From Thelephora terrestris (taxonomy: Eukaryota; Basidiomycota; Agaricomycetes; Thelephorales; Thelephoraceae), in the NCBI GenBank assembly GCA_015956445.1, contig WIUZ02000010.1:496001-560000 (forward strand): a DNA stretch of 64,000 nt. Direction: 5' to 3'. Positions 394 to 49,566 of the stretch are shown here, piece after piece; the first letter of the stretch is position 1; each line of letters starts with the position of its first letter. The notes under the pieces are model-generated. The model was not told the origin of the DNA. It made no database searches and saw only the letters and a program-made list of their open reading frames with translations. The position numbers and the translations under genes are program-made.

Positions 394-2413
394 TGTCACG
401 GAGCAGGAAAAAGTGTGGCGGGTGTGGACCCACAGCAAGTGATTGAACTATGGCCTCTTGAATTGGAACGTCCTTTCGAAAGATAATTAAATAATCACGG
501 ATGCTGAATGGGAACACAAAAGAGTTACAAGGATAGTACAACGGTGAACACCCGAGACCTGATATCGAGCTCGCACAGCAAATCTAATCCTTCAATCCAA
601 ACGCATCCGGCAACATATTCCATGCCTTCTTTCTCACTTCTACGTGCCCGGCTTCCCACCCCTTGACACAGACCTCGCAAAACCCATCACGGTGACCTTC
701 GATGCTGCTCGACGACAGAACCTGCAAGACCTTCGTCCCAGACCGAGAAGAATCCGTGATTCGATCGATGACCTTCTGATGTGCATCAGAAACTTTTAAA
801 CCTGTTGCGTTGCGTGAGTGACAATTTGGCGAGGAACACGTTTGGGAGATCTTTGGCCCCAGGACCAGACGGTATGTCTCGTTGAGCTCCAGTTTTTGAA
901 GCGCCACGAGGCCTTTGATCGCAGACTCGAGGACCTCGGGAGAGAGAGTGGCCCTCTGAGATAGGCTTCTGTCCATCAGTGAACTGACACCCCTTCTAGC
1001 CGCCATGTAGTACGCCACCGGTAGCGCGGATGTGAGCCCCTGCTGAACAAATAGGTTGAGGACCTCGTTCGGATGTGGGGTTGGTCCACTGAACACCCTC
1101 TCCCCAATTGACTTGGTAGGCGTGACTCCCTCAAACGTCTCCGGGTACGCATCACGAACAACCTCGATTAGTTGAGGTCGTACAGCAGGCATCTCGTACT
1201 TTGCCGTGATTCGGAGGAGGGATGAGAACGTGTTGAAATCCGGGACTTTGTTTCGCTCAGGGTACCTGCAGACTTGCGATCAACAGAGGAATGATAGATA
1301 TAGAGATAACAGAAGCATACCCAGGAAGATATATTACCTTGAGAAGTGTGGCGAAATCTGTTGCCGTGTCGGAGGACAGGATACTAGGGCAACCGTTGGG
1401 CGATTCGGCAGCGGCGAGATTGGCCCGAACGAACATTTGACGGAGGGCAGGGGAATGGAAAGAAAGGATGCTTGTGTGTACACGGAAGAGGGTGTTCCCA
1501 CATAAAACTTCCACGTTTCCATCCGCGAAGTTGAACGTGCTATGGGGGGTAATGGTTGTGAGGTCGACGGGAGACTCATCGTCGGAAACATCTGCAACGG
1601 TGAAGTCGGACAGAGTGGCAATGCTAGTGGACGGAGACAGGGTGACGGGGGATCTGGAGATCATCTCTGTCTCTGGGGTGGCAATCGAATCGAGCGGAGG
1701 GGGCCCAAAAGTCTGAGATTCGAGGTCTACGTCGGGCAGCCCCAGAGATGTGGCGACGGGGGTTGCACTGGGATCTTCCTGGCCCATGTTGGTTTGCTCT
1801 GGTCTGCTGGTTGTGAATACGGGTGGGGGCGGTGGCAGGCCCTCCCAACCACGTTCACGTAGTCGAAATACCTCCTGCAATTTATCTTAGTTCCTAGCAA
1901 GCTCCCTTCATAGAGTTCGCCCACCTGTATCTCCTCCCAACGCCAGCTGTTGAGATTGCTGTAGTCCCTGATAAGCTTAAAGCAGCGGTCGACCACTAAA
2001 GGATCAGCGTATGCGTTAAATGTGGCCCCTCAGGCTACTCTGAAAAGTATACAGAGCATTTCCGCCTGGTAATGGTGTAGCGTCGAAAGGGAGGTCGTGG
2101 TGAGAAGTTGGAGGATGTGCTGATGGATCGCGGTTTCCTCTATGAACCCAAGATTGGCACCGTGTGCGATGAAGTTAGCAAGGACATGATCCCCTCCCAA
2201 TCCAGACACGACGGCCAGCGAAACGTTGAAGAATTCGTTCAGAATGCTTGTACAGAGACGGTTCCGGAGTCCAGCGCTGTGCAAAGCAAGGATACTGTCC
2301 GACTCTGCATCGCTGGCGAAACGGAGGATCAAGAGGGTGGCCGGGAAGAAGATACCCTTGTTGGGCGAAGTGAGCCTCCCTCTGTGCTTCCAAATCGAAT
2401 CGAAGACCAGATT

Positions 2414-2427
2414 CATCAGGAAAACTG
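2414..2427 (+). repeat. left terminal inverted repeat of the element in B1
   Basis: The sequence is CATCAGGAAAACTG, an exact inverted match to 4388-4401. It abuts B1 coding sequence (LVFDSIW, complement) on its left. Confidence 0.85.
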
Positions 2428-4387
2428 CACGTTGCTTTTTGTGCTTTTCATGCTTGATTGGCGAGAAAGCAGGAAAAGCACCATCCCAAAAAGCAACCGT
2501 TGAAATAAAAAAGCAAGCTCCAGGCCAGAAAGCATCAAATGTGCCGAAAAGCAGGCAGGGCATCAGACCGCCGAACACTAGTATATTCCCTTAAAAACAC
2601 GTCCTCTATCCACTGTATTTATTTATATACGGTCGACAAAAGGTTTAAAACAACATTGGGTGAGCATCCTCGCGAGGGTGCCAACAGAACAGGTACTTGG
2701 GAAACACCCTCGGGGGGAGGGCGCTAAATACAATATGATCAGTTAGACGGGCAGAGGACCATTCCTTACATGCTCGGAGTTGCCCAGAACAGACCTCTAT
2801 CACGCCGAAGAACTCCATTGGTAGAACTTTTCCTCAGCCCTGTTGCTCGTGCCCACAAGACACTCGCCTGTCCAACAGTGCCCAAAATCACGGGGAAGGA
2901 TACACAGGAATAGAGTTTGACAACATTGGCGAGGTTTCAGAATGTTTGCCTCTACTGAGAGGAGTCGGTTGGTCTGCATACAGTGCAAAACCACTTCAAG
3001 GGCCTGTAGGTGTAACGGGGAGATCCGAAGTTGCAGTGAAGGCATGTTTGGAGGTTCCACATAACGGCGTCGGGTGAGAAGAGCGTGAGAGCGCCCAAGC
3101 GCAAAGCCCGGAATTCTCTAAGTCCACGATCACGTGTCATGCATCCGCGTCAATACCGTCTCCCATCTTTCATGTCAGAGGGCAAGACATTGTGTGAGTT
3201 GTTTTCCACCACCTAATTCCTCCACTAACACTATTTTTGGTGTCATGGAGGCCGAGAGGAAGCACAACCCGAGCATCGCCTCGGTCGTTGTCCAAACTTT
3301 GCTTCTGGACTCATTTGGACCTCCGCCACGCTCGAACATACGACACGCTCCAAACAAGACCTTGCCCGCTTCCATATTCCCCTCCCATCACCACTTTCCT
3401 CCCAGGTTAGGGTACCCCTCTATTTTTTGTCTCGCTCTCATCTGTTGGCAAGTTCCGCACACGAACGAAAAACTCGAATGTGTGCCCACACCCACCTTTC
3501 CCCCAACCCAGCACAGACACCGGGGTACACCTTGCAAACCAAACCCTCCCCCCATCCAATACGCTCTGATGATCGACGCCGGGTCAGATGGTTCTTGCAT
3601 GCATTCAACAACAGCGGACCTTCTGCGGCATACAAGTTCGAGGTCTTCATGAACGAGACGGTCAAGATCTGTGGAAGTGTACCCCCATCGCTCTGCTGGA
3701 TTGAGGATCTAGATCGAGAAGTAGAGCAAGGATATCCTGGATGCCGTTGCAAATAGACTAAGGGAGAAGCACGAGTTCCATCCGAGGTCAAACGAGGATG
3801 TGGCGATAGCGGACGGGAAGGGCGAAGTGTATATGCCTGGGTCACCACCAATTACCCCCTGCACGCGATAGGCTGTTCTGCGAAGACCACCTTTGCCGTT
3901 CTGAGATCGTCTTCGAGCCCGCATTCGATAAGGAGCACGGAGCTTACTTCCTCCCCAATAACTCCTCAACAAATTTTAGGTCTCTGAGGCACGACGTGTA
4001 AACCCCAACCTCTGAGAAGCCCCGGGCAGCAACTGGAATGTTCGCGCCTCTTCCATTCCCCCTGATATTGGAATCGACTGAAACTTAGCCACGATTGTAA
4101 TATAATCCCCACTCTCTCTGGACACACTTTGTGGTGTTTTGGCATTTCGTGTAGTTCGTGCACCGGCGTTGAACACATTTTCTCCTAACCACCTCATGTA
4201 GCTGTCAGTAGTCATACCGTGCTTTTACATGCTTTCACCTGCTTTGTCAAGCAGGAAAAGCATTTCGTCAGAATTTGGGCTAAGATGCTTTTGGGAAATG
4301 CACCCTGCTTTTCAATCACCTGCTTTACGTGCTTTTCCCTGATAATTCCCGCTTTTCGTGCTTGTTCAAGCAGGAAAAGCAAATTTC

Positions 4388-4401
4388 CAGTTTTCCTGAT
4401 G
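4388..4401 (-). repeat. right terminal inverted repeat of the element in B1
   Basis: The sequence is CAGTTTTCCTGATG, the exact complement of the left end. The adjoining sequence to the right resumes B1 exon 1 (QTYSKVPS, complement). Confidence 0.85.
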
Positions 4402-4840
4402 TGGAGGGGACTTTGGAGTAGGTCTGCGCAAGCTCAAACACAAAACGATAATTGGCGAAAGATTGAGCGTAGTTCTCTTCGGATAAGTTACTGAGCACTG
4501 AGCCCAATGCCCCTTCGACGTTGGACATCATAATTGTCGCCATGAGATGAGAGGACGAGGGTGTTTACGTAAACAAGCAACAGGGTTTGGCTGACCGTCG
4601 ACCCTGTTTTTTTTGCTGATAGCATGAACGCTCGACAAAAACTCATCGCAAAACAAGTGTGGTCGTAAACAAAATCATCTTCGTCGTGCGCAACTCCACT
4701 CCAGCGCGGCGCCCTTCTCGACTCCGGCTGTTCTCGAACGCCCCAGAAGCCCGCAATCGCTCCCTCTCAGTTTCGTCCTTTCAAACCAAGTGCCTCAACC
4801 CTCCCTCGCCGCCATCTCCAACAAAAAAACAAAAGCTCAA

Positions 4841-5216
4841 ACAAGCCACAAGGACAATCGGCTATCTTGACCCAGCTCTCCGTTGCGGTTTTAGGTCTTC
4901 ACCAACTACGTTCCGAAGCCAGCTAAAGACGCGGGATGACGACCACGTCGTCACTGTCGACACAGTCAAGCGGTATGCCATGGTCGTGCGTGCCCTCTTT
5001 CTCTGCAGCTTGGCTCAAATCATTCCTCGGTCACCTCGTCTCTTTTCTGTGTGGCTAGATTGGTTCCGGATGGTTTTTCGTTCCGATTGCGAGACCTTAA
5101 ACATTATGACGCGTTTACCTTCTGACCACACAGTTATGTACCAAAATTCCAGCTATATGGCGTCAGGTCGCGTAGACCTTATTCTCGGGCAAGTGGGAGA
5201 AGCATGCTCACCCTAG
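4841..5216 (+). pseudogene. 5'-truncation fragment of the mitochondrial-protein gene (copy 1)
   Basis: This region aligns with exons 1-3 of the complete gene at 15156-16171. It retains GYLDPALRCGFRSSPTTFR in place of RYLAPVFRSGFRSSRTTFR, and a recognisable exon 3 start (LFSGKWEKHAHP after a CGTAG acceptor). The position corresponding to the start ATG is no longer ATG, and the sequence after the first presequence-like residues is frame-disturbed. Homology to the complete gene stops in exon 3 right after the HAHP codons, at the same place as in copy 2, and the sequence then becomes the 3' flank of A1. It is a decayed remnant of the tandem duplication, not a gene. Confidence 0.75.
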
Positions 5217-5339
5217 GGAGTGTGAGCTTGCCACGAACTCGGAGCTGGGATTCAGGGCAATGTTGTGACACCCATTGCGAAAGCGGGACATCTCGAAAGT
5301 ATCAGTTATGTACAATGGAATATGGCTAAGACGAGATAA

Positions 5340-5351
5340 ATGCATATGCAT
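5340..5351. repeat. 12-bp palindrome ATGCATATGCAT downstream of A1
   Basis: A perfect 12-bp palindrome lies about 65 bp beyond the A1 stop, on its 3' side. The same palindrome occurs at 10515-10526 beyond A2, so it is part of the duplicated unit. It may be a 3'-UTR or downstream element. No function can be assigned. Confidence 0.5.
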
Positions 5352-5416
5352 ATTACAATCCAGAAAACACGCTAAATAACCATGGAATAACCATGGACTT
5401 GTGCCAGAGTCAAAGA

Positions 5417-7479
5417 TCACAAGTCATCCCAACTGCGAGAGATATTGAACGCTGGCGCAAGTTTCTCCCAAACGGCTGAACGCCAGGTGGCGTGAGATAC
5501 CTCCACAGGCTTTACACATTTTGCACAGAGAAGGTGTTCCAGAGAGGGCGAACTCAACGGTCCACCTTCCCTCTGCCCAATCACTGCAGAATAGATCTTC
5601 TCCGTCGCCACCACCCTCTCCTCGACGTTGTTGATTTGAACACTCAAACTGCACGCCTTGTCTGGACAAACTCGAAGGCATCCCCCGTAGACAGCCATAC
5701 GCGCGGCATCGGAGGCCGAAGATTGTAGTACATGTATGCCATAGATGGTGGTAGCGAGAGTGCGACGTGGGAGAACAGTACCAGGTTTGTCGCTCATCAG
5801 AGCGGAGAAACCACCGATAGAAGCACGGTAGGCGGCAAACGGGATCGCGAACTTGACATTCTGCGCCTCGAACAGATTCAGCACTGCGTTGGGATGGGGA
5901 TTGGGCGACCGGAAAAAGTCTTCTCCAAGAACCTTTGCGCCTTGGAAATCCTCCCATTTGGTAGGGTAGGCACCCCTGATGTCCTTGACGAGCTGATCGC
6001 GGACGCTGGAGAAGCCGTACTTCGTTGTCATTCTGAGGAGCGATGCGAACACCGTGAACTCCGGAGCCTCGTGTCTCGGAGGGAACCTGGACGGCATTCC
6101 GGTGAGGTCAGTTTTCCTGTTTCGATTAAAGGGAAGGAATGATTCACCCTGGGGTGTAGATCATCTTCAGTAGGATCCCAAAGTCTTCAGCGCTATCTGG
6201 GATGGTGACTCGAGGGCATTCTCCAGGAGTTGGAGCATGGAGGAGTGTCGATTGGGAGAGGATGTCCCGGAGCTTGGTGGAGGAAAACGAGAGGATGGAA
6301 GAATGAACCCTGAATACGGTGTCTCCGCAGACAATCTCTACATTTCCGTCTTCGAAGTGAAGGGCATTGTGGCGAGCAGCAGCCTGCTCCTCGGCGTGTT
6401 CGATGTCGTCGCCGAGCTCCGTCGGTGTAAAGTCGGATATGGTTGAGATGCTGAGCGTGGGGGAGGAAGTTGCGCCGGTCGCAACGCTGATAAACGGCTC
6501 AGGTAAAGAGTCTACGTCGTCATCATCGAAGACGGAAGGCTCGATATTTTGGGAGATGGAGGGAGGGATTTCAATATCGATCGTCGCGGCGGGAAGATTT
6601 TGAGGAACAAAAGCCACTGGAGTTTCGGCCTCTGCGGAGACTTCTGCGTCGGTATCCTCTGCTCCTCCTTGACATTCTTCACTCTCCCTTGCATTCTTCT
6701 GACCTTCCTCATCTTTCTGCTGCATCCATGCGGCGTGGATCTCGCGGAATTCCTGCTCGGAAGTCAAGCTCCATTGTAACAGCGAGCGGTGCGCTGTACT
6801 GTACCTGTAGTTTCGCCGACTCGAATCCCTCTATCCATCCGCGTCGGGGCTCAAGTATTTCGAAGCAGACTTGGACATCTTCGGGCTCGAGAAGACCACG
6901 AAGCAAGGTGTTCCCCGCAGCAATGAACAGTTGGTAGATCGCGTTGGCCCGGACTGTTTCGGGGGACTGTTCGTCACCAACTGCATACTGGTGGTTGGTC
7001 AGCGGCTTGATGAGGTGTTCTCTCGCGAGCTCGTGGGCGAGCAAGTCCCGCTCGATGAGAGATCCAACGAATGACGCGGCGCCTATGAAGCCATTTGCTC
7101 CGTTGCTCGTAATCAAGAAGTACTTGGGTGACCAATCCATCCGAAGGTCCTCCACGGATGCTATTGCAAACCGACGGAGGACGTAAGGGCACAACTGAGC
7201 GACGAAGGACCTCGCATCTTCAGAGCGGTGAGGCGCATCATGGAACTCCTTGAAGAACCGCCCCACACTTGCGAAAGAGCGACCACCAAACCATGCGACT
7301 TCCGATACTCCCTCCACAAGCTCATCGACCGTCGCAAAACCCTCGCGGAGGACATATTCGATCCAGTATTTAATCTTTGGTGTGATTTCATCGTACGTCG
7401 ACGGCTTGTTGGCGAGAGAGATGAGCAGAGAGCGGATTTTCGAGCAAATAGGACCTTTCCGTTCGTGATAGCCCGACAT
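5417..7479 (-). CDS. MIF4G-like/BTB domain protein, A branch, copy A1
   Basis: Three exons join in frame to about 649 residues: 7479-6805, 6752-6148 and 6086-5417 (introns of 52 and 61 nt). Exon 1 begins MSGYHERKG and forms an all-helical MIF4G-like domain, with KIRSLL...YDEITPKIKYW near the start, a FVGSLIERDLLAHELAREHL repeat-type helix pair, and a LLEPEDVQVCFEIL end. Exon 2 starts EFREIHAAW (the equivalent of the LRERxW terminus of MIF4G domains), then an acidic Ser/Thr-rich linker, then a BTB/POZ domain (FEDGNVEIVCGDTVFRVHSS). Exon 3 holds a BACK-like helical region and two Cys pairs (CPDKAC, CAKC). BTB proteins commonly act as CUL3 adaptors, and MIF4G domains bind RNA or translation factors; a role joining these is inference. 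The upstream ATG-less extension was not used as start because A0 and A2 share MxGYHERK. Confidence 0.85.
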
Positions 7480-7688
7480 TGTCACGGAGCAGGAGAAAGT
7501 GGGGCGGGTGTGGACCCACAGCAAGTGATGGGACTCTGGCCCCCCTCGAATTGGAACGTTCCCTCGAAAAACAATCATAATCATCACGGATGTTGTATGG
7601 GACCACAAAAAAAGTTCAAGGACATAAGAGAGTCGCGATAGTACAGCGGTGAACCCCCGAGACTTGATATCGGGCTCGCACGGCATGA

Positions 7689-9659
7689 TTAGTCCTTCAA
7701 TCCAAACGCATCCGGCAACATATTCCATGCCTTTTTTCTCACTTCGACGTGCCCAGCTTCCCATCCCTTGACACAGACCTCACAAAACCCGTCAGGGTCA
7801 CCTTCATCAATGCTGCCCAACGAGAGAACCTGCAAAACCTTCGTCCCAGACCGAGAAGAATCCGTGATTCGATCGATGACCTTTTTGCGCGCATCAGACG
7901 CACTTGGATCCCTCGTGCTGCGTGAGGGACAAATCGGTGAGGAACACGCGCGGGAGGTCTTTGACCCCAGAACCAAACGATATGTCTCGTCGAGCTCCAG
8001 TTCGCGGAGGGCCATGAGACCCTTTATCGCAGACTCGAGGACCTCGGGTGAGAGAGTGGCCCTCTGAGATAGGCTTCTGTCCATCAGTGAACTGACACCC
8101 CTTCTAGCCGCCATGTAGTACGCCACCGGTAGCGCGGATGTGAGCCCCTGCTGGACAAATAGGTTGAGGACCTCGTTCGGATGTGGGGTTGGTCCACTGA
8201 ACACCCTCTCCCCAATCGACTTGGTAGGCGTGACTCCCTCGAACGTTTCCGGGTACGCATCACGAACAACCTCGATTAACTGAGGTCGTACAGCAGGCAT
8301 CTCGTACTTTGCCGTGATTCGGAGGAGGGATGAGAACGTGTTGAAATCCGGGACTTTGTTCCGCTCAGGGTACCTGCAGACTTGCGATCAGCGGGGCGAC
8401 GGTAGGTATGGAGATGGCTTGACATACCCGGGGAGATATATTACCTTGAGAAGTGTAGCGAAGTCGGTTGCTGTGTCGGAGGACAGGATGCGAGGGCAAC
8501 CGTTGGGCGATTTTGCAGCTGCGAGATTGGCCCGAGCGAACATTTGACGAAGGGCAGGGGAATGGAGCGAAAGGATGCTTGTGTGAACACGGAAGAGGGT
8601 GTTCCCACATAACACTTCCACGTTCCCATCCTCGAAGTTGAAGGTGTCATGGGGGGTTATGGCCGTAGGATCAATGGGAGACTCGTCATCGGAGGTATCT
8701 GCAAAGGTAAAGTCGGACAAAGTGGCAATGCTGATGGTCGGAGACTGGGTAACTGGGGATCTTGAGATCGTTTCAGTTTCTGGAGTGGTGAGTGATTCGA
8801 GCGGAGGAGATTGAGGGATCTGAGGTTCGGGGTCTGCATTCGGTAGTCCCAGGGATGTGGCGACGGGAGTTGCGCTGGGATCTTCCTGGCCCATGATCTG
8901 GTCTGCTGGTTGTGAGTACCGGTGGGGGAGGCAGACCCTCCCAACCCCGTTCCCGTAGCTGGAACACTTCCTGAACGTTGCCTTAGCTCCAACGAAGGTT
9001 CCTTCACAGGGTTTGCTTACCAGTATATATGCCAGCCTTCCTTTATGAAATCTCTCGTTGTAGTCCCCGAGGAGCTTAAAGCAGCGGTCGACCACCGAAG
9101 GATCGACAAATACGGCAAGTGTGGCCCCTGCTATCTTGAAAAGAATACAGAGCGCTTCCATCTGATAACGGTACAGCATCAAATAGGGGGTTGTAGTGAG
9201 AAGCTGTAGGATGTGTTTGCGGATCACGGTTTCCTCTATGAGTCCAAGATTGGCACTGTGTGCAACGAGGTTAGCGAGGAGATTAACATTCCCCCCTGAT
9301 CTGGACACGAATCCCAACCCAAGATCGAGAAATTCTCTTAGAATAGTTGTGCAGAGGCGACCCCGGAGTCCAGTGCTGTGCGAAGCAAGGATGCTATCCG
9401 ACTCTGCGTCGCTGGCGAAACGAAGGATTAAGCGGGAGGTCGGGTAGAGGTGGCTGCTGTCGGGCGAAGTGAGCCTCCCTCTGTGTTTCCAGATCGAATC
9501 GAAGACCAAATCTGGGGGAATTTGGGAGTGTGTCTGCGCGAGTTCGAACAGAAAACAATAATTGGCGAAGGATTGTTCATAGTTTTCTTCGGTTAGGACA
9601 CCGACTACTGAACCTAATGCCCCTTCAATGTTAGACATTGTTACTGTGGTTGTCGCCAT
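7689..9659 (-). CDS. MIF4G-like/BTB domain protein, B branch, copy B2 (8-bp deletion, frame restored only with intron 1 retained)
   Basis: The start is MATTTVTMSNIEG. Exon 1 (9659-9021) is MIF4G-like: LTEENYEQSFANY, then LLANLVAHSANLGLIEETVI, then MEALCILFKIAG. Exon 2 would begin at 8970 with EVFQLRERGWEG, the MIF4G end motif, followed by a Pro/Ser/Thr linker and BTB (GNVEVLCGNTLFRVHTSIL). Exon 3 is 8373-7689. Compared with B1 and B3, exon 2 lacks 8 bp near 8895, so splicing intron 1 shifts the frame and ends translation before the BTB domain. If the 50-nt intron (8971-9020), which contains no in-frame stop, is retained, the net change is 42 nt and the frame into BTB is restored, giving about 638 residues. 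It is therefore either a recent pseudogene or an intron-retention gene. Confidence 0.7.
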
Positions 9660-9994
9660 GATGAAAGGGACGTGGGTGGTTACGTAAACCAGCCACAGGG
9701 TTTGGGCGTTTTAGACTGACTGTCATATCCCAGCACGTTCCGTTCGTCAGCCACTTGGCTTCTACTCCATGCCCTGTTTTTCCGCAGAGAGCACGAATGC
9801 TCGATAAGAACACTCCGCAAAATATCGGAAAGCTAAAGCCGCCTTTCATTGCGCGCCAGTAACTTCGGCTGTTCCCGAGCACCCCAGAAGCCACGCCGAA
9901 GAGCTTATTGCTTCCTGTTGGTTTCTTCCTTCCGACCCAAGAGTCCCAACTCTCCCTTGTCACCTCTTGCAAACAACGAAACCACAAGCTCAAA

Positions 9995-10379
9995 ATGGCC
10001 TCACGGGTAACCAGCTATCTTACCCTGGTCTTCCGCTCCGGTTTCAGGTCTTCACGAACTACGTTCCGGGCAGCGGGAAGCGCGGAATGTCCCCCGGCTC
10101 GTCACAGTCAAAACAGTCCAGTGATATGCCATGGCTAGCCCGTGCCCTCGTTCACACACCCCGTTTCCCTCTATCTTGACGTTAATCATTCCTCGGTCGT
10201 GATTCCCCTTTGCGGCGTACCTAGATCGGTTTCAGATTGGTTTTCGTTCCAACTGCGAGACCTTATGACGCATTTACCTTCTGACAACACAGGCACGTAC
10301 TGAAATACCGTTTACATGGCGTGAGGTCACGTAGACCTTATTCTCGGGCATTGGGAAGAATCCCGCTCACCCTAAGGAG
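9995..10379 (+). pseudogene. 5'-truncation fragment of the mitochondrial-protein gene (copy 2)
   Basis: The ATG and the first presequence residues (MASRVTSYLTLVFRSGFRSS) are preserved and close to the complete gene. A 4-bp deletion after TTFR then shifts the frame; the shifted remnant of AGSGKRGMS and QSKQSSDMPW can still be read in another frame. Exon 2-like (RLVFVPT) and exon 3-like (LFSGIGKNPAHPKE) pieces follow, and homology ends just after the AHP codons, at the same break as copy 1. It belongs to the repeated 5.16-kb unit and is unlikely to make a functional protein. Confidence 0.8.
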
Positions 10380-10514
10380 TGAGCTTGTCACAAACTTGGA
10401 CTCGGACCTAGGTCCTAGGCTGGGGTTCAGGGCAATGTTGTGCTACCCATTGCGAAAGCACAACCTCTCGAAAGTATCAATTATGTACAATAAAATATGG
10501 CTAAGACGAGATAA

Positions 10515-10526
10515 ATGCATATGCAT
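10515..10526. repeat. 12-bp palindrome ATGCATATGCAT downstream of A2
   Basis: This is the same palindrome as at 5340-5351, at the same position relative to the A gene 3' end. Confidence 0.5.
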
Positions 10527-10580
10527 ATTACAATCCAGGAAACACGCTGAATAACCATGGACTTGTGCCAGACTTTAGGA

Positions 10581-12640
10581 TCACAAGTCGTCCCGACTGC
10601 GAGAGATATTGAACGCTGGCGCAAGTTTCTTCCAAACAGCTGAACGCCAGGTGGCGTGAGCCACCTCCACCGGCTTTGCACATTTTGCGCAGAGAAGGTG
10701 CCCCAAAGAGGGCAAACTCAACGGTCCGCCTTCCCTCTGCCCAATCACTGCAGAATAGATCTTCTCCATCGCCACCATCCTCCCCTCGACGTTTCTAATT
10801 TCAACACTCAAACTGCACGCCTCGTCAGGACAAACCTGAAGGTATCCTCGGTAGACGGCCGTACGCGCGGCATCGGAAGCCGAAGATTGTAGTACGTGTA
10901 TGCCATAGATGGTGGTGGCAAGAGTGCGACGTGGGAGGACAGTACCAGGTTTGTCGCTCATCAGAGCAGAGAAACCACCGATAGAAGCACGGTAGGCGGC
11001 AAAAGGGATCGCGAACTTAACATTCTCCGCCTCGAACAGATTCAGCACCGCGTTGGGATGGGGTTTGGGCGATCCGAAAAAGTCTTCTCCAAGGACCTTT
11101 GCACCCTGGAAGTCTTCCCATGTGGTAGGGTAAGCGCCCCTGATGTCCTTGACAAGTTGATCGCGGACGCTGGAGAAGCCGTACTTCGTTGTCATTCGGA
11201 GGAGCGATGCGAACACCGTGAACTCCGGTGCCTCATGTCTCGGAGGGAACCTGGACGTCATTCCGGCGCGGTCAGTTTTCCTGTTTCAAATAAAGGGAAG
11301 GAATGATTCACCCTGGGGTGTAGATCATCTTCAGTAAGATCCCAAAGTCTTCAGCGCTATCTGGGATGGTGACTCGAGGGCATTCTCCCGGAGTTGGAGC
11401 ATGGAGGAGTGTCGGTTGGGAGAGGATGTCCCGGAGCTTGGGGGAGGAAAACGAGAGGATGGAAGAATGAACCCTGAATACGGTGTCTCCGCAGACAATC
11501 TCTACGTTTCCGTCTTCGAAGTAAAGGGCATTGTGGCGATCAGCAGCCAGCTCCTCGCCGTTTTCGATGTCTTCACCGAGCTCCGTCGGTGTAAAGTCGG
11601 ATATTGTCGAAATGCTGAGCGTGGGGGAGGAAGTTGCGCCGGTCGCGACACTGACAAATGACTCGGGTAAAGAGTCTACGTCATCAAAGACGAAAGGCTC
11701 GATATTTTTGGAGATGGAAGGAGGGATCTCGATATCGATCGTCGCGGCGGGAAGATTTTGAGGAACGAAAGCCACTGGAGTTTCGGCCTCTGCGGAGACT
11801 TCTGCGTCGGTATCCTCTGCCCGTCCTTGACAGTCTCCAGTCTCCCTTGCCTTCTCCCGCCCCTCCTCCTCTTTCTCCCGCATCCATGCGGCGTGAATCT
11901 CGCGGAATTCCTGTTCGGAAGTCAAGCTCCATTGTAACCGCGAGCGGTGCGCTGTACTGTACCTGTAGCTTCGCCGACTCGAATCCCTTTATCCATCCTC
12001 GTCGGGGCTCAAGTATCTCGAAGCAGACTTGGACATCTTCGGGCTCGAGAAGACCACGAAGCAAGGCGTTCCCCGCAGCAACGAACAGTTGGTAGATCGC
12101 GTTGGCCCGGACAGTTTCGGAGGAATCTTTGCCACCGGCGGTATACTGGTGGTGTGTCAGCGGCTTGATGAGGTGTTGTCTCGCGAGCTCGTGGGTGAGC
12201 AAGCCACACTGGATGAGACATCCAACGAACGATGCAGCGTCTATGAAGCCATTTGCTCCGTTTCTCGTAATCAGGTAGCCGTAGTAAGGTTCCCTATCCA
12301 TCTGAAGGTCTTCCACAGATGCTATCGCAAACCAACGGAGGACGTAAGTGCACAACTGAGTAACGAAAGACCTCGCAATCTCAGAGCGGTGAGGCGCATC
12401 ATGGAACTCCTTGAGGAACCGCCCGACACTTGAAAAAGAGCGACCACCACACCATGCGTCCTCTGATACTGCCTCCACAAGCTCATCGACCGTCGCAAAA
12501 CCCTCGCTGAGGACATATTCGATCCAGTATTCGATCTTTGGTGTGATTTCATCGTACGCAGACGGCACGTTGACGAGAGAGGTGAGCAGAGAGCGGATCT
12601 TCGAGCAAATGGGACCTTTCCGTTCATGATAGCCCGGCAT
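10581..12640 (-). CDS. MIF4G-like/BTB domain protein, A branch, copy A2
   Basis: Three exons (12640-11963, 11910-11312, 11250-10581) give about 648 residues with the same splice phases as A1. The start MPGYHERKG is shared with A0. The MIF4G-like exon carries YDEITPKIEYWIEYVL and a C-terminal LLEPEDVQVCFEILEP. The BTB exon carries FEDGNVEIVCGDTVFRVHSS and ILSFSSPKLRDIL. The last exon holds a helical region and Cys pairs CPDEAC and CAKCAK, ending AWKKLAP-like/FNIS. It is very similar to A1, and most differences are substitutions plus small in-frame indels in the acidic linker, which suggests both copies are under constraint or very young. Function is unknown; a BTB-type E3 adaptor or scaffold role is inference. 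Confidence 0.85.
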
Positions 12641-12812
12641 TGTCACGGAGCAGGAATGAGTGTGGCGGGTGTGGACCCACAGCAAGTGATGGGACTCTGG
12701 CCCCTCGAATTGGAACGTTCATGGGAGCACAAAAGAGTTACAAGGACATAACAAAGTCGGAATAGTACAGCGGTGAACACCCGAGACCTGACATCGAGCT
12801 CGCACAGCAAAT

Positions 12813-14797
12813 TTAATCCTTCAATCCAAACGCATCCGGCAACATATTCCATGCCTTCTTTCTCACTTCGACGTGACCGGCTTCCCACCCCTTGACACAG
12901 ACCTCGCAAAACCCGTCACAGTCACCTTCATTGATGCTGCTCAACGACAGGACCTGCAAAACCTTCGTTCCAGACCGAGAAGCATCCGTGATTCGATCGA
13001 TGACCTTCTTGTGTGCATCAGACGCTCTTGGATCCCTCGTGCTGCGTGAGGGACAAATCGGCGAGGAACACGCGCGGGAGATCTTTGACCCCAGAACCAG
13101 ACGGTATGTCTCGTTGAGCTCCAGTTCGCGGAGGGCAATGAAACCTTTGATCGCAGACTCGAGGATCTCGGGAGAGAGAGTGGCCCTCTGGGATAGACTT
13201 CTGTCCATCAGCGAACTGATACCCCTTCTAGCCGCCATGTAGTATGCCACCGGTAGCGCGGATGTGAGCCCCTGCTGGACAAATAGGTTGAGGACCTCGT
13301 TCGGATGCGGGGTTGGTCCACTGAAGACCCTCTCCCCAATTGACTTGGTAGGCGTGACTCCCTCGAACGTCTCCGGGTACGCATCACGAACAACCTCGAT
13401 TAAGTGAGGTCGTACAGCAGGCATCTCGTACTTCGCCGTGATCCGGAGGAGGGATGAGAATGTGTTGAAATCCGGGACTTTGTTCCACTCAGGGTACCTG
13501 CAGACTTGTGATCAGCGGAGGAATGATAGGTGTAGAGATGGATTAACATACCCGGGAAGATAGATTACCTTGAGAAGTGTGGCGAAGTCGGTTGCTGTGT
13601 CGGAGGACAGGATACGAGGGCAACCGTTGGGCGATTCGGCAGCTGCGAGATTGGCCCGAGCGAACATTTGACGGAGGGCAGGGGAATGGAGGGAAAGAAC
13701 GCTCGTGTGAACACGGAAGAGGGTACTCCCACATAACACTTCCGCGTTCCCATCCTCGAAGTTGAAGGTGTCATGGGGGATTATGGCCGTAGGATCAATG
13801 GGAGACTCGTCATCGGAGGTATCTGCAAAGGTGAAGTCGGACAAAGTGGCAATGCTGGTGGTCGGAGACTGGGTAGCTGGGGATCCGGGAATCGCTTCAG
13901 TCTCTGGAGTGGTGAGTGATTCGAGCGGAGGAGATTGAGGGATCTGAGGTTCGGGGTCTGCATTCGGTAGTCCCAGGGATGTGGCGACGGGAGTTGCGCT
14001 GGGATCTTCCTGGCCCGTGTTGGTCTGATCTGGGCTGCTGGTTGTGAGTACCGGTGGGGGAGGCAGACCCTCCCAACCCCGTTCCCGTAGCTGAAACACT
14101 TCCTAAAGGTTGCCTTAGCTCCAACGAAGGTTCCTTCACAGGGTTTGCTTACCAGTATATATACCAGCCTTAGCCTTCCTCTGTGAAATCTTTTGTTGTA
14201 GTCCCCGAGGAGCTCAAAGCAGCGGTCGAGCACCGAAGGATCAACATATACGGCAAGTGTGGCCCCTGCTATCTTGAAAAGAATACAGAGCGCTTCCATC
14301 TGGTCCTGGCGCAGCTTCGAAATGGAGGTTGTAGTGAGAAGCTGAAGGATGTGTTTGCGGATCACGATTTCCTCCATGAGTCCAAGATTGGCACCATGTG
14401 CAACGAGGTTAGCGAGGAGTTTAATATTTCCCCCTGATCCGGACACGAATCCCAACCCAACATTGAGAAATTCTCTTAGAATAGTTGTGCAGAGGCGACC
14501 CCGGAGTCCAGTGCTGTGCGAAGCAAGGATGCTGTCCGACTCTGCATCGCTGGCGAAACGAAGGATTAAGTGGGAGGTCGGGTAGAAGAGGCCGTCGTCG
14601 GGCGAAGTGAGCCACCCTTTGTGTTTCCAGATCGAATCGAAGACCAAATCTGAGGGGATTTGGGAGTGTGCCTGCGCGAGTTCGAACAGAAAACAATAAT
14701 TGGCGAAGAATTGTTCATAGTTTTCTTCGGTTAGGGCACCGACTACTGAACCTAATGCCCCTTCAATGTTAGACATTGCTACTGTGGTTGTCGCCAT
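12813..14797 (-). CDS. MIF4G-like/BTB domain protein, B branch, copy B3 (best intact B copy)
   Basis: The three exons 14797-14153, 14102-13552 and 13497-12813 join to about 626 residues without interruption. The start MATTTVAMSNIEG was chosen over an upstream open extension because B1 and B2 share it. Exon 1 is MIF4G-like (LTEENYEQFFANY; LLANLVAHGANLGLMEEIVI; ALCILFKIAGATL). Exon 2 opens EVFQLRERGWEGLPPPP, matching the LRERxW signature at the end of MIF4G domains, then a Ser/Thr/Pro linker and BTB (FEDGNAEVLCGSTLFRVHTS). Exon 3 continues YPEWNKVPDFNTF with a BACK-like region, then Cys pairs CSSPIC and CEVC. It has the 8 bp that B2 lost and lacks the B1 lesions. It lies 359 bp from the divergent mitochondrial gene. 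Confidence 0.85.
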
Positions 14798-15155
14798 GAT
14801 GAGAGGGACGCGGGTGGTTACGTAAACAAGCCACAGTTTGAGCTTTTTAGACTGACCGCCATATCCCAGCACGTTCCGTTCGTCAGCCACTTGGTTTCTA
14901 CTCCGCGCTGTGGTTTTCCGCCGAGAGCGCGAATGCTCGACAAGAACACACCGCAAAATATCGGAAAGCGAGTGATTACATCACTTCCGTTGTGCGCAAC
15001 TCTGGCGCCTTTCTCGACTCCGGCTGTTCCCGAACACCCCGGAAGCCATTCAGAAGAGCTTATTGCTTAGCCTAAGCCTTGGTTTCATCCCTCCGACCCA
15101 AGAGTCCCAACTCTCCCTCGTCACCTCTTTCAAACAACAAAAACACAAGCTCAAA

Positions 15156-16171
15156 ATGGCCTCACGGGCAACCCGCTATCTTGCCCCTGTCTTCCGCTCC
15201 GGTTTCAGGTCTTCACGAACTACGTTCCGAGCTGGCAGCGGGAAGCGCGGAATGTCCACCAACTCGTCACAGTCAAAACAGTCCCGTGATATGCCATGGC
15301 TAGTGCGTGCCCTCTTTCACACGCCGTCTTTCCCTCCGTCTTGGCTTAAATCATCCCTCGGTCGTTTTTTCTCTTTGCGGCGTGACTAGATCTGTTCCGG
15401 ACTGGTTTTCGTCCCGACTGTGAGTTTACCTCCAGACTACTATGGGTATCAACTGAAATCCCGGTTATATGGCATTAGATTGCTTGGATATTATCCTCGG
15501 GCAAGGGGGAGAAGCACGCTCACCCTCATCCAAAAACTCCGAAGGATCAAGGGGAGATTGCTGAGGCGGTCGAGGACGTCCCGAAAGAAGCTGCCCCGGA
15601 GCCCGACACCATCGAACCAGTAATGTCTTCCCAAATTTCCCGTTGTCGCTCCAGCCTCAAGCTTTTGGTGTCTCACAGCCTCCCGAACCGGTTTCGGAGG
15701 ATAAATCACCCGAGGTAGCGCGATACGCAACTAATTTGTAGTCCGTGCTGACGTGCATGCGTCTCTCACTTCAGATTACCCCTGAAACTACTGCACCCGA
15801 GTCTGCTTTCAGTGACGACGATGGCGTCGTAATCTCTGCGGAGGAGGTGGAGGAGTCCATAAACAAGGCTATTGTGCGTACCCACGCTTCCCACTTTGGT
15901 GCGATCGGTGCCTAATTCAGGCCTCGCTCTTTCTTCGTCCACGTCGTCGTGCTGCAGGATGCCGATGTTCCAAAAGAAGCCAAAACCGGTGAAGTCACCG
16001 AAGATACGTCTCCCAAACCCTCCCCGGCCCCATCAGAATCTGAACCTGTGGAGGGGAGCATGAGAGAGGCCACAGACGCTATCCCTCCACCACCTGTACG
16101 TCTCACTTTGAATCGAAGGTTTATGGCCGTACTCACCGCCGTTTTTTACCTAGTCCGAGGAGGCCTCATAG
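15156..16171 (+). CDS. small predicted mitochondrial protein of unknown function (complete copy)
   Basis: Six inferred exons (15156-15302, 15390-15419, 15479-15619, 15775-15873, 15958-16095, 16154-16171) give about 190 residues. The N-terminus MASRATRYLAPVFRSGFRSS is rich in Arg and Ser and lacks acids, as expected of a mitochondrial presequence. A short hydrophobic stretch around DMPWLICSGLVFVPT is encoded across a 30-nt exon 2. The remainder is hydrophilic and acidic (EIAEAVEDVPKEAAPEP; AEEVEESINKA; DADVPKEAKTGEVTEDTS). I recall similar presequence-plus-one-helix-plus-acidic-tail proteins in basidiomycetes but cannot name a function. It is the only complete copy: the tandem array breaks inside its exon 3. 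The exon 2/3 boundaries are the least certain. Confidence 0.65.
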
Positions 16172-44089: not shown

Positions 44090-45526
44090 TTAAAACGGAC
44101 GATAGACGACCGAAGGAGGACGAGGGAGAAAATCATACAGGCCTGCCTCTGCCCCTCTCCTCGTCATCAGCCTCATTTCCCTTGCATGCGCCGACGTCTC
44201 CGGTCCATCATAACAAAACACTACACTACAGGCCCTGACCTCGTATAAACCACGCACCCAACCAACCAGTGACTCAGCCCACATAGTACGCTGCGTTTCT
44301 ACCGCGGGAAATAGGGGAAATATAACGACGAGCTCGGAAAAAACCGGAGATGTGATGGTGGAAAAAAGGTGCTCTAGTCTAGCCAACGAGTCGACCGAGA
44401 CCTCTATGGATCGAAGGGCAGTGCTGGACGAAAGGTTGAAATCATGAGCAGTGGGGGAAGATGCTAAAAGAGCAAAGTCAGCTCAGGTGTGAGGAGAGTG
44501 CTCTGATGGTTAAGAAACCCTCTCACCGTCGTAAGGTTTGATTGGTGGGTATATGCACAGGGTCTCCAAAGTGTCAGCGCAAGCATCCAAAACAAACCGC
44601 ATCGCCCTCGGTGTATTTTTTAGGTCCATGCAAGTGAACCCCATCCCTCCAAACGCGACAGCCATATCCTTCAATAACTCCACATCTCCAAACTCTTTGA
44701 GAGTCAACGTCCCCCGCAATACTCCGCTAATGGGGACGATTGGTTTGTTATCCAGCGGCTCGTACCGAACCCCCTCCGGATACCTAGATATCCCGATGTT
44801 CTCCAACTTCGGAAACAGCATGAAAAAATCAAGCAATTGCCGGCGCGTGCCCTTTGGCCAACTCAACGCCACCGATCGCAGCGTGGGCGCAAAGTGCCCC
44901 AAGTAACTCCCGAGCCCCTCAGGGAACTCGGAGAAATCCAAGTCCCAGATATCGAGTTCCTGCAGATTCACCATCGCACGAAAATCCTGCGGCGTGCCCC
45001 AGGAATTGAAAACAGCGGGACCGATCCAACCGCGCGCGGGACCGCGTGCGAACTCCCCCCCGAAAAGCAGCCGCTCGACGAACGGCAACAGTCCGAATTC
45101 ACGCAAGAATGGGAGCCGATTGGGAACAGGCAGAGCCACGGATCTGGTTGAGGGCCACTCTCGAAGTAGCAGGGTGCGATGGATGTGTGGGGCCGCGATG
45201 CGGTACCAGGTGGAACAGGTCGCGGCGCAGGCTTTGAGAGTCGGGGTGTTGTATTTGAGATAGTCCACGATCATTATCACGATCTCCGGGGGGAAACTGC
45301 GTCTCTGGGAAAGATCTGTGGGAGGACTTGGACGCCTGCGTGCAAGGCCGCCCACGAATTTGGCTTTGAAACGGCCCCAAACGGCGTTGGGGAAGAGCTC
45401 GATTCCTAGGATCAGTCGATGAGGAGATGCGATGGCCGGGGGAATCAGGGTGAGGACTCGCTGAATACCTGATAGGGAAAGTCTAGCACTCCTTGCAAGT
45501 CTTCCGTCGCGGGTGGCTCTCGACAT
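44090..45526 (-). CDS. F-box-like protein, tandem copy 1
   Basis: Exons 45526-45469, 45405-44527 and 44463-44090 give 436 residues. The start MSRATRDGR is shared by all three copies. The F-box-like motif follows a basic/Pro region (FPPEIVIMIVDYLKYNTPTL; ACAATCSTWYRIAAPHIHRTLL). Next comes a long region of irregular leucine-rich segments (FAPTLRSVALSWPKG; LLDFFMLFPKLENIGISRY) and a separate last exon (SPVFSELVVIFPLF; CSVVFCYDGPE). F-box proteins recruit substrates to SCF ubiquitin ligases through Skp1; the target is unknown. Transcription runs leftwards. Intron 1 holds indels between copies that would otherwise look like frameshifts. Confidence 0.8.
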
Positions 45527-45620
45527 GGGTGTATGATTCGAAGTTGATTGCCTACGCCCTCGAGGCTCGGACTCAGATCCCAAGTCCCATGAGTTGCCAC
45601 GTGCACCGTGGCGCCTAAGA

Positions 45621-45632
45621 TCTACATATACT
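45621..45632 (-). promoter_or_regulatory. TATA-like element upstream of F-box copy 1
   Basis: On the minus strand this reads as a tatatgta-type box about 95 bp before the start codon. The equivalent position in copy 2 (47323-47334) reads tattatataga, so the element is conserved in the repeat unit. Confidence 0.45.
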
Positions 45633-45840
45633 GTCACTGGATTGGGCGAAAACCCCTTCGGCGAGAAGATTCACGGGTTGACTACGAGCATAAATTACCG
45701 CCAATACTTCCGGGTATTATCATCTGGCGTACGTGTACACGCAGTTGCGGCAGAGAAAGTCCAAGCCCCAACAAATCTTGAGTATGTGTAAAGCTTGGTG
45801 CTCACTCATCGTACGATCTATTACCCACACAAACCACAAC

Positions 45841-47255
45841 TTAACCTCGAAAAAGAGTCTTAAACGGACGATAGACGACCAAAGGAGGGCGAGGGAGAAA
45901 ATCATACCGGCCTGCCTCTACCCCTCTCCTCGTCATCAGCCTCATTTCCCTTGCATGCGCCGACGTCTCCGGTCCATCGTAACAAAACACTACATTACAG
46001 GCCCTGACCTCGTATAAATCGCGCACCCCATCAGCCACATCAACCCACATAGTGCAACGCGTTTCTACCGAGGGAAATATGACGACGAGCTCGGAAAACA
46101 CCGGAGATGCGATGGTGGAAAAAAGCTGCCCGAGTCTACGCAATGAGTCGACTGAGACCTCTATGCATCGAAGGGCAGTGCTGGACGAAAGGTTGAAATC
46201 ATGAGAAGATGCTAAAAGAACAAAGTCAGTTCAGGCGTGAGGAGAGTGCCCTGATGGTCAAGAAACCCTCTCACTGTAGTGACAACGTTTGATCGGTGGA
46301 TATATCCACAGGGTCTCCAAAGTGTCAGCGCAAGCATCCAAAACAAACCGCATCGCCCCTGGTGCATTTTTTAGGTCCATGCAAGTGAACCCCATCCCTC
46401 CAAACACGACAGCCATGTCCTCCAATAACTTCACATCTCCAAAATCTTTGAGAACCAATGTCCCCCGTAACCCTCTGCTAATGGGGACGACGGGTTGGTT
46501 GTCCAGCGGGTCGCCCCCACCCCGCTTTGAGTACCGAGATATCCCGACGTTCTCCAACTTTGGAAACAGCCTCAAGAAGTCAAGCAATTGCCAGCGTGCG
46601 CCCTTTGGACAAATCAACGCCACCGATCGCAGCGTGGGCGCGAAGTGCCCCAGGTACTTCCCGAGCCCCTCCGGGAACTGGGAGAACATCAAGTCCTCGA
46701 TCTCAAGTCTCTGTAGATTCACCATCGCACCAAAATACGGCATGTTCCCGGAATCGAAATTAGCGGGACAGACCAAACAACCGAGCGATCCCCCGAAAGC
46801 CAGCCGCTCGACGAACGGCAACAATCCGAATTTATGCAAGAATAGGAGCCGACTGTAAGGCTGATTCCTGGACATGCTTTCGGACCACTTTGGAAGTACC
46901 AGGGTGTCGTGAATGTGTAGGGCCGCGATGCGGTACCAGGTGGAACAGGTCGCGGCGCAGGCTTTGAGAGTCGCGGTGTCGTATTTGAGATAGGCCATGA
47001 TCATTATCACGATCTCTGGGGGGAAACTGCGTCTCTGGGGAAGATCTGTGGGAGGACCTGAATGCCTGCGTGCAAGGCCGCCCATGAATTTGGTTTCGAA
47101 ACGGCGCAAAACGGCGTTGGCGAAGATCTCGATTCCTGGAGTGAGCTGATGAGAAGATGCGATGGTGGGGGAACCAGGGTGAGGACTCGCTGAATACCTG
47201 ATAGGGCAAGTCTAGGACTCCTTGGAAAACTTCCGTCGCGGGTGGCTCTCGACAT
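45841..47255 (-). CDS. F-box-like protein, tandem copy 2
   Basis: Exons 47255-47198, 47135-46275 and 46211-45841 give 429 residues. The layout is that of copy 1: MSRATRDGS start, FPPEIVIMIMAYLKYDTATL F-box-like motif, ACAATCSTWYRIAALHIH, LRR-like segments and the last exon ending VVYRPFKTLFRG. A 1-nt difference from copy 1 near 47168 lies inside intron 1 and is harmless once the intron is removed. The C-terminal end is slightly longer than in copy 1 because the stop is reached later. The role as an SCF substrate adaptor is inferred from the family. Confidence 0.8.
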
Positions 47256-47322
47256 GGGTGTGTGATTCGAAGTTTAGCGCCTGCAAGTCCCATAAGCTGC
47301 TACGTGCACCGTGGCGCCAAGA

Positions 47323-47334
47323 TCTATATAATAC
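47323..47334 (-). promoter_or_regulatory. TATA box candidate upstream of F-box copy 2
   Basis: On the minus strand the sequence tattatataga lies about 70-80 bp before the ATG at 47253-47255, a reasonable distance for a fungal TATA box. Confidence 0.5.
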
Positions 47335-47523
47335 TCTTGGATTGGGCGAAAACAGCCTCGGCGAGAAGATTCACGGGTTTGCTACGAGCCTAAATTACCG
47401 CCAGTACTTCCGGGTCTCATCTGGCGTACATGTCCACGCAGCTGCAGTTGCAGCAGAACAAAATGTCATATTACACTTGGTGTCCACCCATCATACGACC
47501 TACCATCCACACAAACCCCCAAC

Positions 47524-48971
47524 TTAGCCTGAGTATTGACGAATACGATTCGCAATCGCACGGAAGAAGACCAAAGGAGGATGAGGGAGAAAATCATAGA
47601 GACCTGCCGCTACGGCTTTCTCCGTCTCCACTGTCAGTTCCCGTTGCCCCTCTGCCCTCGACGTCTCAGATCCCTCCAAACAAAACACTACGCTGAAGCC
47701 CCTGATCTCGTATAAACTATGCATCACACGAGCCAAGGTCTCCCATGTACAACTCGCTCCACTCTCGGGAAATATGACGACGATCTCGGAAAACACCGGG
47801 GATGTGATGGTGGAGAGAAACTCCGTAGAGTAAATGAGCGAGGAGTCTGGGACTTCAATGGATCGAAGGGCAGTGTTGGACGATAGGTTAAACTCGTGAG
47901 TACGAGAGGATACTTCAAGTTGGAGAACAAAGTTAGCTCAGGCGTGAGGAGAGTGCTCTGATGGTCAAAAAAAAACCCTCACCGGGATCAAATACATCTT
48001 GTGGATATATGCGGAGGATCTCCAAAGTGTGAGCGCAAGCATTCAAAACGAATCGCATCACCCTTCGTGTCCCTCGTAGGTCCATGGACGTGAACCTCAT
48101 CCCTCCAAACGCGACAGCTATATCCTCCAATAACCCCACTTCATTGAACATGTTGAGGGTCAATCTCCCCCGTAACCCTCCGCTAATGGGGACGAGTTGG
48201 TTATCCAGCGGCTCGGACACGCTCCGCTTAGGATCGTAACACAATATCTCGACGTCCTCCAACTTCGGGAACAGCCTGAAGAAGTCAAGCAACTGTCGGC
48301 GTGTGCCCTTTGGCCAACTCAACGCCACAGATCGCAGCGTGGGCGCGAAGTGCCCCAGGTACTTCCCGAGCCCCACAGGGAACTTGGAGAAATCCAAGTC
48401 CCCGATCTTGAGTTCCTGTAGATTCACCATCGCACGAAAATATCGCATGTTCCTGGAATCGAAAACAGCGGGAACGTCCCAATGGCCCGGAGCGAACGTC
48501 CCCCTGAAATCCAGCTGCTCGACGAACGGCAGCAGTCCATATTTAAACGAGGATAGGAGCGGATTGGAAGGCTGATTCCCGAACTTGCTTGAGGTCCATT
48601 CCCGAAGCATCAGTGTGCGATGGACGTGTGGGACCGCGATGCGGTACCAGGTGAAACAGGTCGCGGCGCAGGATTTGAGAGTCGCGGTGTCGTATTTGAG
48701 GTGGGCGATGATCATTTCCACAATCTCCGGAGGGAAACTGCGTCTCTGGGGAAGATCCGTGGGTGGATCCGAATGCTTGTGCGCAAGGCCGCCCATGAGT
48801 TTGGCTTTGGAACGGCGCCAAACGGCGTTGGCGAAGATCTCGATTCCTAGGGTGAGCTGATGAGGAGATGCTCGGATGGTGTGGGGGAAACAGGGTGAGG
48901 ACTCGCTAGATACCTGATAGGGAGATTGTAGAACTTCTTGGGGGCCTCCCATCGCGTGTAGCCCTCGACAT
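47524..48971 (-). CDS. F-box-like protein, tandem copy 3
   Basis: Exons 48971-48914, 48846-47983 and 47912-47524 give 436 residues. It is the most diverged of the three. The F-box-like motif is FPPEIVEMIIAHLKYDTATL with SCAATCFTWYRIAVPHVHRTL, followed by LRR-like FAPTLRSVALSWPKG. The last exon reads SPVFSEIVVIFPES and ends in FFRAIANRIRQYSG. A TAG that appears where the other copies have CAG (SLSGI/TAG) sits in intron 1 (donor gtatct, acceptor cctag), so it is not a nonsense mutation. It is probably the oldest copy, at the upstream end of the array. Confidence 0.78.
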
Positions 48972-49566
48972 GGGCGTGTGATTCCAAGTTGAGCGTCAGG
49001 CATGCCGCCTAGGCTCAGACTCGGATCCCGAGGACCGAAGTATGGATATCAAGTCCCACGAGTTGCCACCTGGCGTTTTGATCTACTTTTAGATTGGGCG
49101 ACTCGGAAAGCCACCTGGGCGAGGAGAGACACGGGCTGATTATGGGCCTGATTGCGTTGGAACAACAGAATGAGACGGCAGGTGGTGGCACGTCGATGAT
49201 GCACCCTTCAACGGGGACGCTATTGATCTCACCGCTAGAATCGTGGCGCCTGCATTAGACCATACAGATATCCGATAGGTACGCAAGCACGCGCGCTTTT
49301 CTGCCCGAATACCTCAACGAATTCACTGGGTAAACTTGAAAAGCCACACACGAGGTTGGTCGACATCACCGGTGGCAATGGGGATTTTCAAACGAAGCGA
49401 AGCAGTGACGTACGCTAGCGCAAAGTGTTGATCTCCAAGGAACAGATTGAAACCGCGAACGAAAGAGGGCGTGGTGATCTTCTGGTACTGTGTGCAAGAC
49501 ATTTTATTCCACCTGCAGCCCAGCGTTTTATACCAGGGCCTCCAGTCGATTCGTCGAGACTGTAAG
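48972..49566. other. intergenic between F-box copy 3 and A4
   Basis: It contains the diverged upstream region of F-box copy 3 and the 3' flank of A4. No gene was seen. Confidence 0.5.

Follow-up and report, generated by a model that had tools for sequence, protein, structure and literature searches.

MATH-BTB proteins are adaptors of CUL3, transcription-factor BTB domains multimerise, and BTB genes are abundant in mushroom-forming fungi. Among MATH-BTB genes, selection has a precedent in the worm, as described in a portion of PMC4334554. Among the matches listed in a search of literature lying mostly outside subscription journals, judged by titles and abstract openings, no paper on a MIF4G–BTB fusion was found; automatic listings of the domain pair may exist in public protein databases. 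Here we analyse a 64-kb window of the Thelephora terrestris genome (64,000 nucleotides; positions are those of the window unless a contig or locus is named) that carries two related gene types, A and B. An original prediction, made from these nucleotides, held that the proteins join a MIF4G-like domain to a BTB domain.

Paired A and B genes in the window and the genome

The interval 5417-14797 contains four three-exon genes, A2, B2, A3 and B3, all on the (-) strand and arranged as head-to-tail pairs, B3 then A3 and B2 then A2. A third (-)-strand pair, B4 then A4, lies outside this interval at 53914-49567, and a broken B1 and the start of A1 are found at the left edge of the window. Within a pair, the two genes are separated by 172 bases (B3/A3), 209 bases (B2/A2) or 370 bases (B4/A4). 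In A2 (5417-7479, 649 aa), exon 1 (7479-6805) encodes the MIF4G-like domain, exon 2 (6752-6148) the linker and first part of the BTB domain (26.4 bits), and exon 3 (6086-5417) the rest of the BTB domain and a Cys-pair tail. A3 (10581-12640, 648 aa) has its exons at 12640-11963, 11910-11312 and 11250-10581, and B3 (12813-14797, 626 aa) at 14797-14153, 14102-13552 and 13497-12813. In the third pair, where both genes have an exon-1 match, the exons of A4 (49567-51586, 634 aa) lie at 51586-50903, 50847-50294 and 50233-49567, and those of B4 (51957-53914, 616 aa) at 53914-53288, 53235-52685 and 52629-51957. B2 (7689-9659) consists of exon 1 at 9659-9021, found by an exon-1 match, a frameshifted exon 2 (8970-8428) with stops after the shift, and exon 3 at 8373-7689. 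A 440-codon frame at 8388-9710 in this gene passes from exon 1 through intron 1 into the exon 2 coding sequence. Intron 1 of the six modelled window genes is in phase 0 and 50-55 nt long; intron 2 is in phase 2, lies inside the BTB domain and measures 54-61 nt. Five of the six models (A2, A3, B3, A4 and B4) give uninterrupted translations of 616-649 aa.

At the window edge, A1 (1-393, (-) strand) is represented by the first part of exon 1, the remainder continuing beyond the window in an open frame (contig C2:495716-496393 and further). The broken B1 (584-4540, (-) strand) retains exon-1 pieces at 4400-4540 and 1955-2416 (one stop), a BTB match at 1326-1514 and an exon-3 match at 590-1264. Its exon 1 is split by about 2 kb of DNA (2417-4399) that has no match in the sister units and may be an inserted element. 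Near A4 and B4, at 44510-49048 on the (-) strand, stand three tandem related open frames with an N-terminal part that looks F-box-like by eye.

The spliced models agree with the predicted layout: intact A and B genes encode an N-terminal helical domain, a linker, a BTB domain and a tail carrying a C-x3/4-C pair and a C-x2-C pair of cysteines, both invariant in seven aligned A, B and C members. The BTB domain passed the Pfam cut-off in four of the five intact window proteins (A2, A3, B3 and B4); the scan of A4 did not report it, and there it was assigned by alignment to relatives. With the paralogs C1, C2 and B8 included, seven of eight scanned proteins exceeded the cut-off of PF00651 (20.5 bits). 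A BTB profile searched against PDB sequences found transcription-factor BTBs as its best matches, at E 0.008 and weaker, and CUL3 adaptors were not among the best; judged on sequence, the family BTB is a divergent one. The genome holds 38 BTB matches.

Family counts come from searches of the single T. terrestris genome and are lower bounds. We found at least 17 MIF4G–BTB copies or remnants: five A genes, nine B genes (counting the broken B1 and the frameshifted B2), C1, C2 and D1. Exon 1 of A3 matched at least five places and exon 1 of B3 at least 11, the latter representing nine genes or remnants. Exon 3 of C1 matched at least 21 places, comprising 16 A, B and C members, D1 (contig C34:647949), one relative on contig C14 and three weak matches (E 0.005-0.007). 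Within the 3.4 kb examined at the C14 relative (L069), a MIF4G-like frame was not seen. Spliced end-to-end models were built for 14 copies (A1-A5, B3-B9, C1 and C2), with a GC donor required for intron 1 of B9 and the intron-1 acceptor of B5 set manually; for D1 only the separate exons were located, its BTB being identified by visual inspection.

Each of the five A genes has a B gene immediately upstream in the same orientation, B1 and B2 being among these partners, and the B–A pair is therefore probably the unit of duplication. Between the units at 4800-9900 and 9900-15400, identity is 89% over 5 kb. Since polycistronic transcripts are reported from mushroom-forming fungi in a part of PMC4503453, co-transcription of a B–A pair is possible.

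Relationship of the N-terminal domain to eIF4G

Pfam alone misses the MIF4G half of the protein in every intact window member: PF02854 was reported in none of the five, and its curated cut-off was likewise missed by C2, D1 and B8. The paralog C1 supplies the connection. A single spliced model of C1 contains both a MIF4G domain (51 bits, cut-off 30.8) and a BTB domain (25.8 bits, cut-off 20.5) above the curated cut-offs, and C1 has in common with A and B the BTB domain, the tail and both introns, alike in place and phase. The co-occurrence of both domains over their cut-offs in a member with the same introns, BTB and tail settles the MIF4G–BTB architecture. Below the cut-off, MIF4G matches were obtained for C2 (E 5.8e-4) and for D1 (E 1e-3, over profile positions 93-179).

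A profile of 13 N-terminal domains drawn from A, B and C, leaving out A1, B2 and D1, was compared with PDB sequences at E ≤10 and matched six. Five of these are MIF4G domains of eIF4G1, eIF4GII and DAP5 (E 2.2e-7 to 6.2e-5), each aligned over about 220 of 231 positions; the sixth is a designed protein matched over 37 positions (E 2.4e-4). As a single query, C1 matched eIF4G in the PDB only weakly, at E 0.057 and 0.095. An A-only profile had no PDB matches, and a B-only profile had no MIF4G match and one unrelated match (E 1.7). These last results, together with the absence of Pfam MIF4G from the five window proteins, are what would be expected if the N-terminal domain were an unrelated helical domain resembling MIF4G by chance.

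Leave-out HMMs were searched against 969 sequences, 16 N-terminal domains and 953 other open frames, and their E-values are valid for that small set; several of the background frames are fragments of family genes or copies of eIF4G, which were retained and judged by locus name. An HMM of A and B recovered C1 (1.2e-6), the eIF4G of the same genome (7.1e-5) and D1 (1.2e-3) and missed C2 (E 4.9). The B-only HMM found A4 (3.9e-6) and C1 (0.0016), with eIF4G at only 0.31, and the A-only HMM found B6 (3.5e-4), with eIF4G at only 3.6. The C and D HMM detected eIF4G at 5.6e-14 and A4 at 6.1e-6, with A1-A3 at only 0.98-1.7 and A5 unlisted; combining B, C and D gave 1.8e-10 for A4 and 1.4e-9 for eIF4G. 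Profile comparison matched A to B at E 1.1e-6 and B to C1 at 1.1e-4; the match between A and C1 spanned 75 columns at E 0.0039, and hhalign aligned the B-only profile with the resident eIF4G over 94 columns. The score against eIF4G was reached by none of 100 shuffles for A, B and C together, none of 100 for B alone and two of 100 for A alone. Relatedness to PF02854 was thus found with the 13-domain PDB profile and the leave-out HMMs, and not with A-only or B-only profiles against the PDB. Chance likeness to MIF4G, considered as an explanation, was rejected by the shuffles and leave-out HMMs.

The position of an intron provides a separate line of evidence. In the resident eIF4G, a 54-nt phase-0 intron lies between FMLQ and DLIELRGRSW of the MIF4G domain. 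Intron 1 of the family has the same phase and precedes the matching motif, EVFQLRERGW in B3, DVLFFHSAGW in C1 and EFREIHAAW in A2 and A3; C2 and D1 keep the phase-0 intron and have no clear motif. The MIF4G hallmarks named in the original prediction are present in the models, and the QLRERGW or ELRENGW that it placed at the domain end falls directly after intron 1 and aligns where eIF4G-type MIF4G domains end. Because the end of the MIF4G domain is encoded in exon 2 in B genes, this exon belongs with exon 1. The two introns of B8 each measure 54 nt, keep the frame and are free of stops, and one 675-codon frame spans both domains. Intron 1 is likewise 54 nt, in frame and stop-free in B7, B6 and B9 as it is in B8 (loci L031 1474-3501, L036 2528-3889, and L037 33-1415 and 2514-3956), and the matching eIF4G intron is also in frame and stop-free.

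Taken together, sequence likeness and the common intron show that the N-terminal domain derives from the eIF4G MIF4G domain. With C1 above the Pfam cut-off, leave-out HMMs matching eIF4G and an intron alike in position and phase, an unrelated helical domain is strongly disfavoured, to the point that we consider it scarcely credible. That a MIF4G-type domain is fused to BTB, as predicted, is borne out by Pfam on C1, by the profile matches, by the intron common with eIF4G and by the single frame of B8, and is near certain. An AlphaFold2 model of the A3 N-terminal domain (exon 1), based on a 15-sequence alignment (pLDDT 83.2, pTM 0.82), is entirely helical and lists 12 helices; by our own reading of the model, as opposed to a fold match, these would form some five helical hairpins, of which the final one is truncated where the exon ends. 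The genome also carries a second eIF4G-like gene (L015, L017; contig C59:1384114-1384846) in which the MIF4G match is split between two frames.

Selection and exchange between copies

Nine gene pairs, which overlap in genes, gave 36 region values of dN/dS; 35 of these lie below 1 and one is undefined. As all defined regions fall below 1, all parts of the protein are constrained, and purifying selection acts on each of them. Positive selection was considered and is not supported by these values. The degree of constraint differs along the protein: in seven close pairs, dN/dS was 0.42-0.71 for the N-terminal domain, 0.08-0.33 for the exon-2 part of the BTB domain and 0.16-0.50 for exon 3. One-sided Fisher tests of the N-terminal domain against BTB plus exon 3 were applied to six of the seven close pairs, which share genes (A2–A5, the two distant pairs and the linker were left out). 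Relatively more amino-acid change was found in the N-terminal domain in five of the six (P 0.003-0.014), the excess being absent from A1-A5 (P 0.19). Furthermore, exon 1 of A1 (from window position 393 leftwards, L043) is nearest to A2 and A3 (dS 0.16-0.18), while its exon 3 is nearest to A5 (dS 0.10), a sign that copies have exchanged sequence.

Such a pattern could belong to a repertoire directed against foreign elements, a reading that overlaps with that of CUL3 adaptors. It would accommodate the tandem B–A units, the broken copies, the signs of inter-copy exchange and the higher nonsynonymous-to-synonymous ratio of the N-terminal domain in five of six tested pairs, and the worm offers a precedent in the portion of PMC4334554 cited above. 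However, dN/dS of the N-terminal domain stays below 1 (0.27-0.71 in the nine pairs, which share genes), and exon 3 has the higher dN/dS in A1-A5 and A3-A4; we therefore regard a defensive repertoire as improbable.

Candidate function and comparison with known systems

A CUL3-type gene is present in the genome as a fragment: a 149-aa cullin piece has Cullin-3 as its best match (E 2.9e-38, versus 3.4e-27 for Cullin-4A). Cullin-like pieces occur in pairs across contigs with identical scores and query ranges (C12:999636/C48:5921, C16:625849/C56:1527698 and C20:134577/C56:1451224), as if recently copied, and the first of these pairs carries stops. In the family proteins, as C1 with its MIF4G and BTB domains illustrates, a second domain stands beside the BTB in the position of a putative substrate-binding domain. 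The transcription-factor type of the nearest BTB structures leaves CUL3 binding neither shown nor excluded.

The asparagine through which eIF4G contacts eIF4A is N615 in yeast and N86 in DAP5, according to part of PMC10746786. We placed it on the LNKLT helix by way of the 4iul alignment numbering and compared members in a MAFFT alignment, in which a slip of one residue is possible; it is N in the resident eIF4G and in one of 15 family members (B4). With the residue kept in so few members, binding of eIF4A in the manner of eIF4G appears doubtful.

The most likely reading, to which we give somewhat better than even chances, is that these proteins act as CUL3 adaptors whose recognition domain comes from eIF4G. 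In the proposed mechanism, the HEAT-type MIF4G domain derived from eIF4G is joined to the BTB and Cys-pair C-terminal region; the BTB domain would dimerise, possibly as A–B heterodimers given the pairing of A and B genes, and the dimer would dock on CUL3. The MIF4G-like domain, the faster-changing part, would hold a partner or substrate, and the held protein, perhaps linked to RNPs or translation, would become ubiquitinated. The suggestion of the original prediction that the family could tie RNA or translation factors to ubiquitination is, on these sequences, only a possibility.

The same architecture could serve as a scaffold outside any ligase, the BTB domain only multimerising and the MIF4G-like domain binding RNPs or helicases to regulate translation or RNA fate. 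Both the transcription-factor BTBs nearest in solved structure and the descent of the domain from eIF4G fit such a scaffold, whereas the loss of the eIF4A-contact Asn from most members, the CUL3-type gene in the genome and a passage of PMC8893723 in which BTB/POZ genes with developmental expression in mushroom-forming fungi are placed under protein ubiquitination speak against it, and we consider it unlikely, with perhaps one chance in a few. A further scenario, in which an eIF4G MIF4G exon, intron included, was copied onto a BTB gene in a fungal lineage and then expanded into paired A/B ligase adaptors that read translation or RNA–protein complexes, foreign ones included, for destruction, is a speculative one to which we assign a low probability.

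The analysis uncovers a two-domain architecture with clear descent. If the family does provide the recognition part of a CUL3 ligase, a translation-factor scaffold has been turned into a ligase adaptor, and some of the many BTB genes in mushroom-forming fungi gain a testable class of targets. Like MATH-BTB CUL3 adaptors, the family would have a recognition domain N-terminal to the BTB and is an expanded tandem family; unlike them, it has MIF4G in place of MATH, its CUL3 binding is putative and, with dN/dS below 1, positive selection was not seen. Its N-terminal part is similar in sequence to almost all of the MIF4G (HEAT-1) domain of eIF4G and DAP5, the similarity reaching the terminal LRxxxW-like motif in A and B, and eIF4G, A, B and C1 all have a phase-0 intron directly before that motif. 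In contrast to eIF4G, the scanned family proteins carry none of the other eIF4G Pfam domains; in the alignment the family lacks the long middle loop of the resident eIF4G, and its N-terminal domain is fused to BTB. With BTB proteins of mushroom-forming fungi, as presented in part of PMC8893723, the family shares a BTB domain after which come a PHPN motif and the Cys pairs, seen by eye in the C14 relative as well, and to this plan it adds the N-terminal MIF4G-like exon and the linker.
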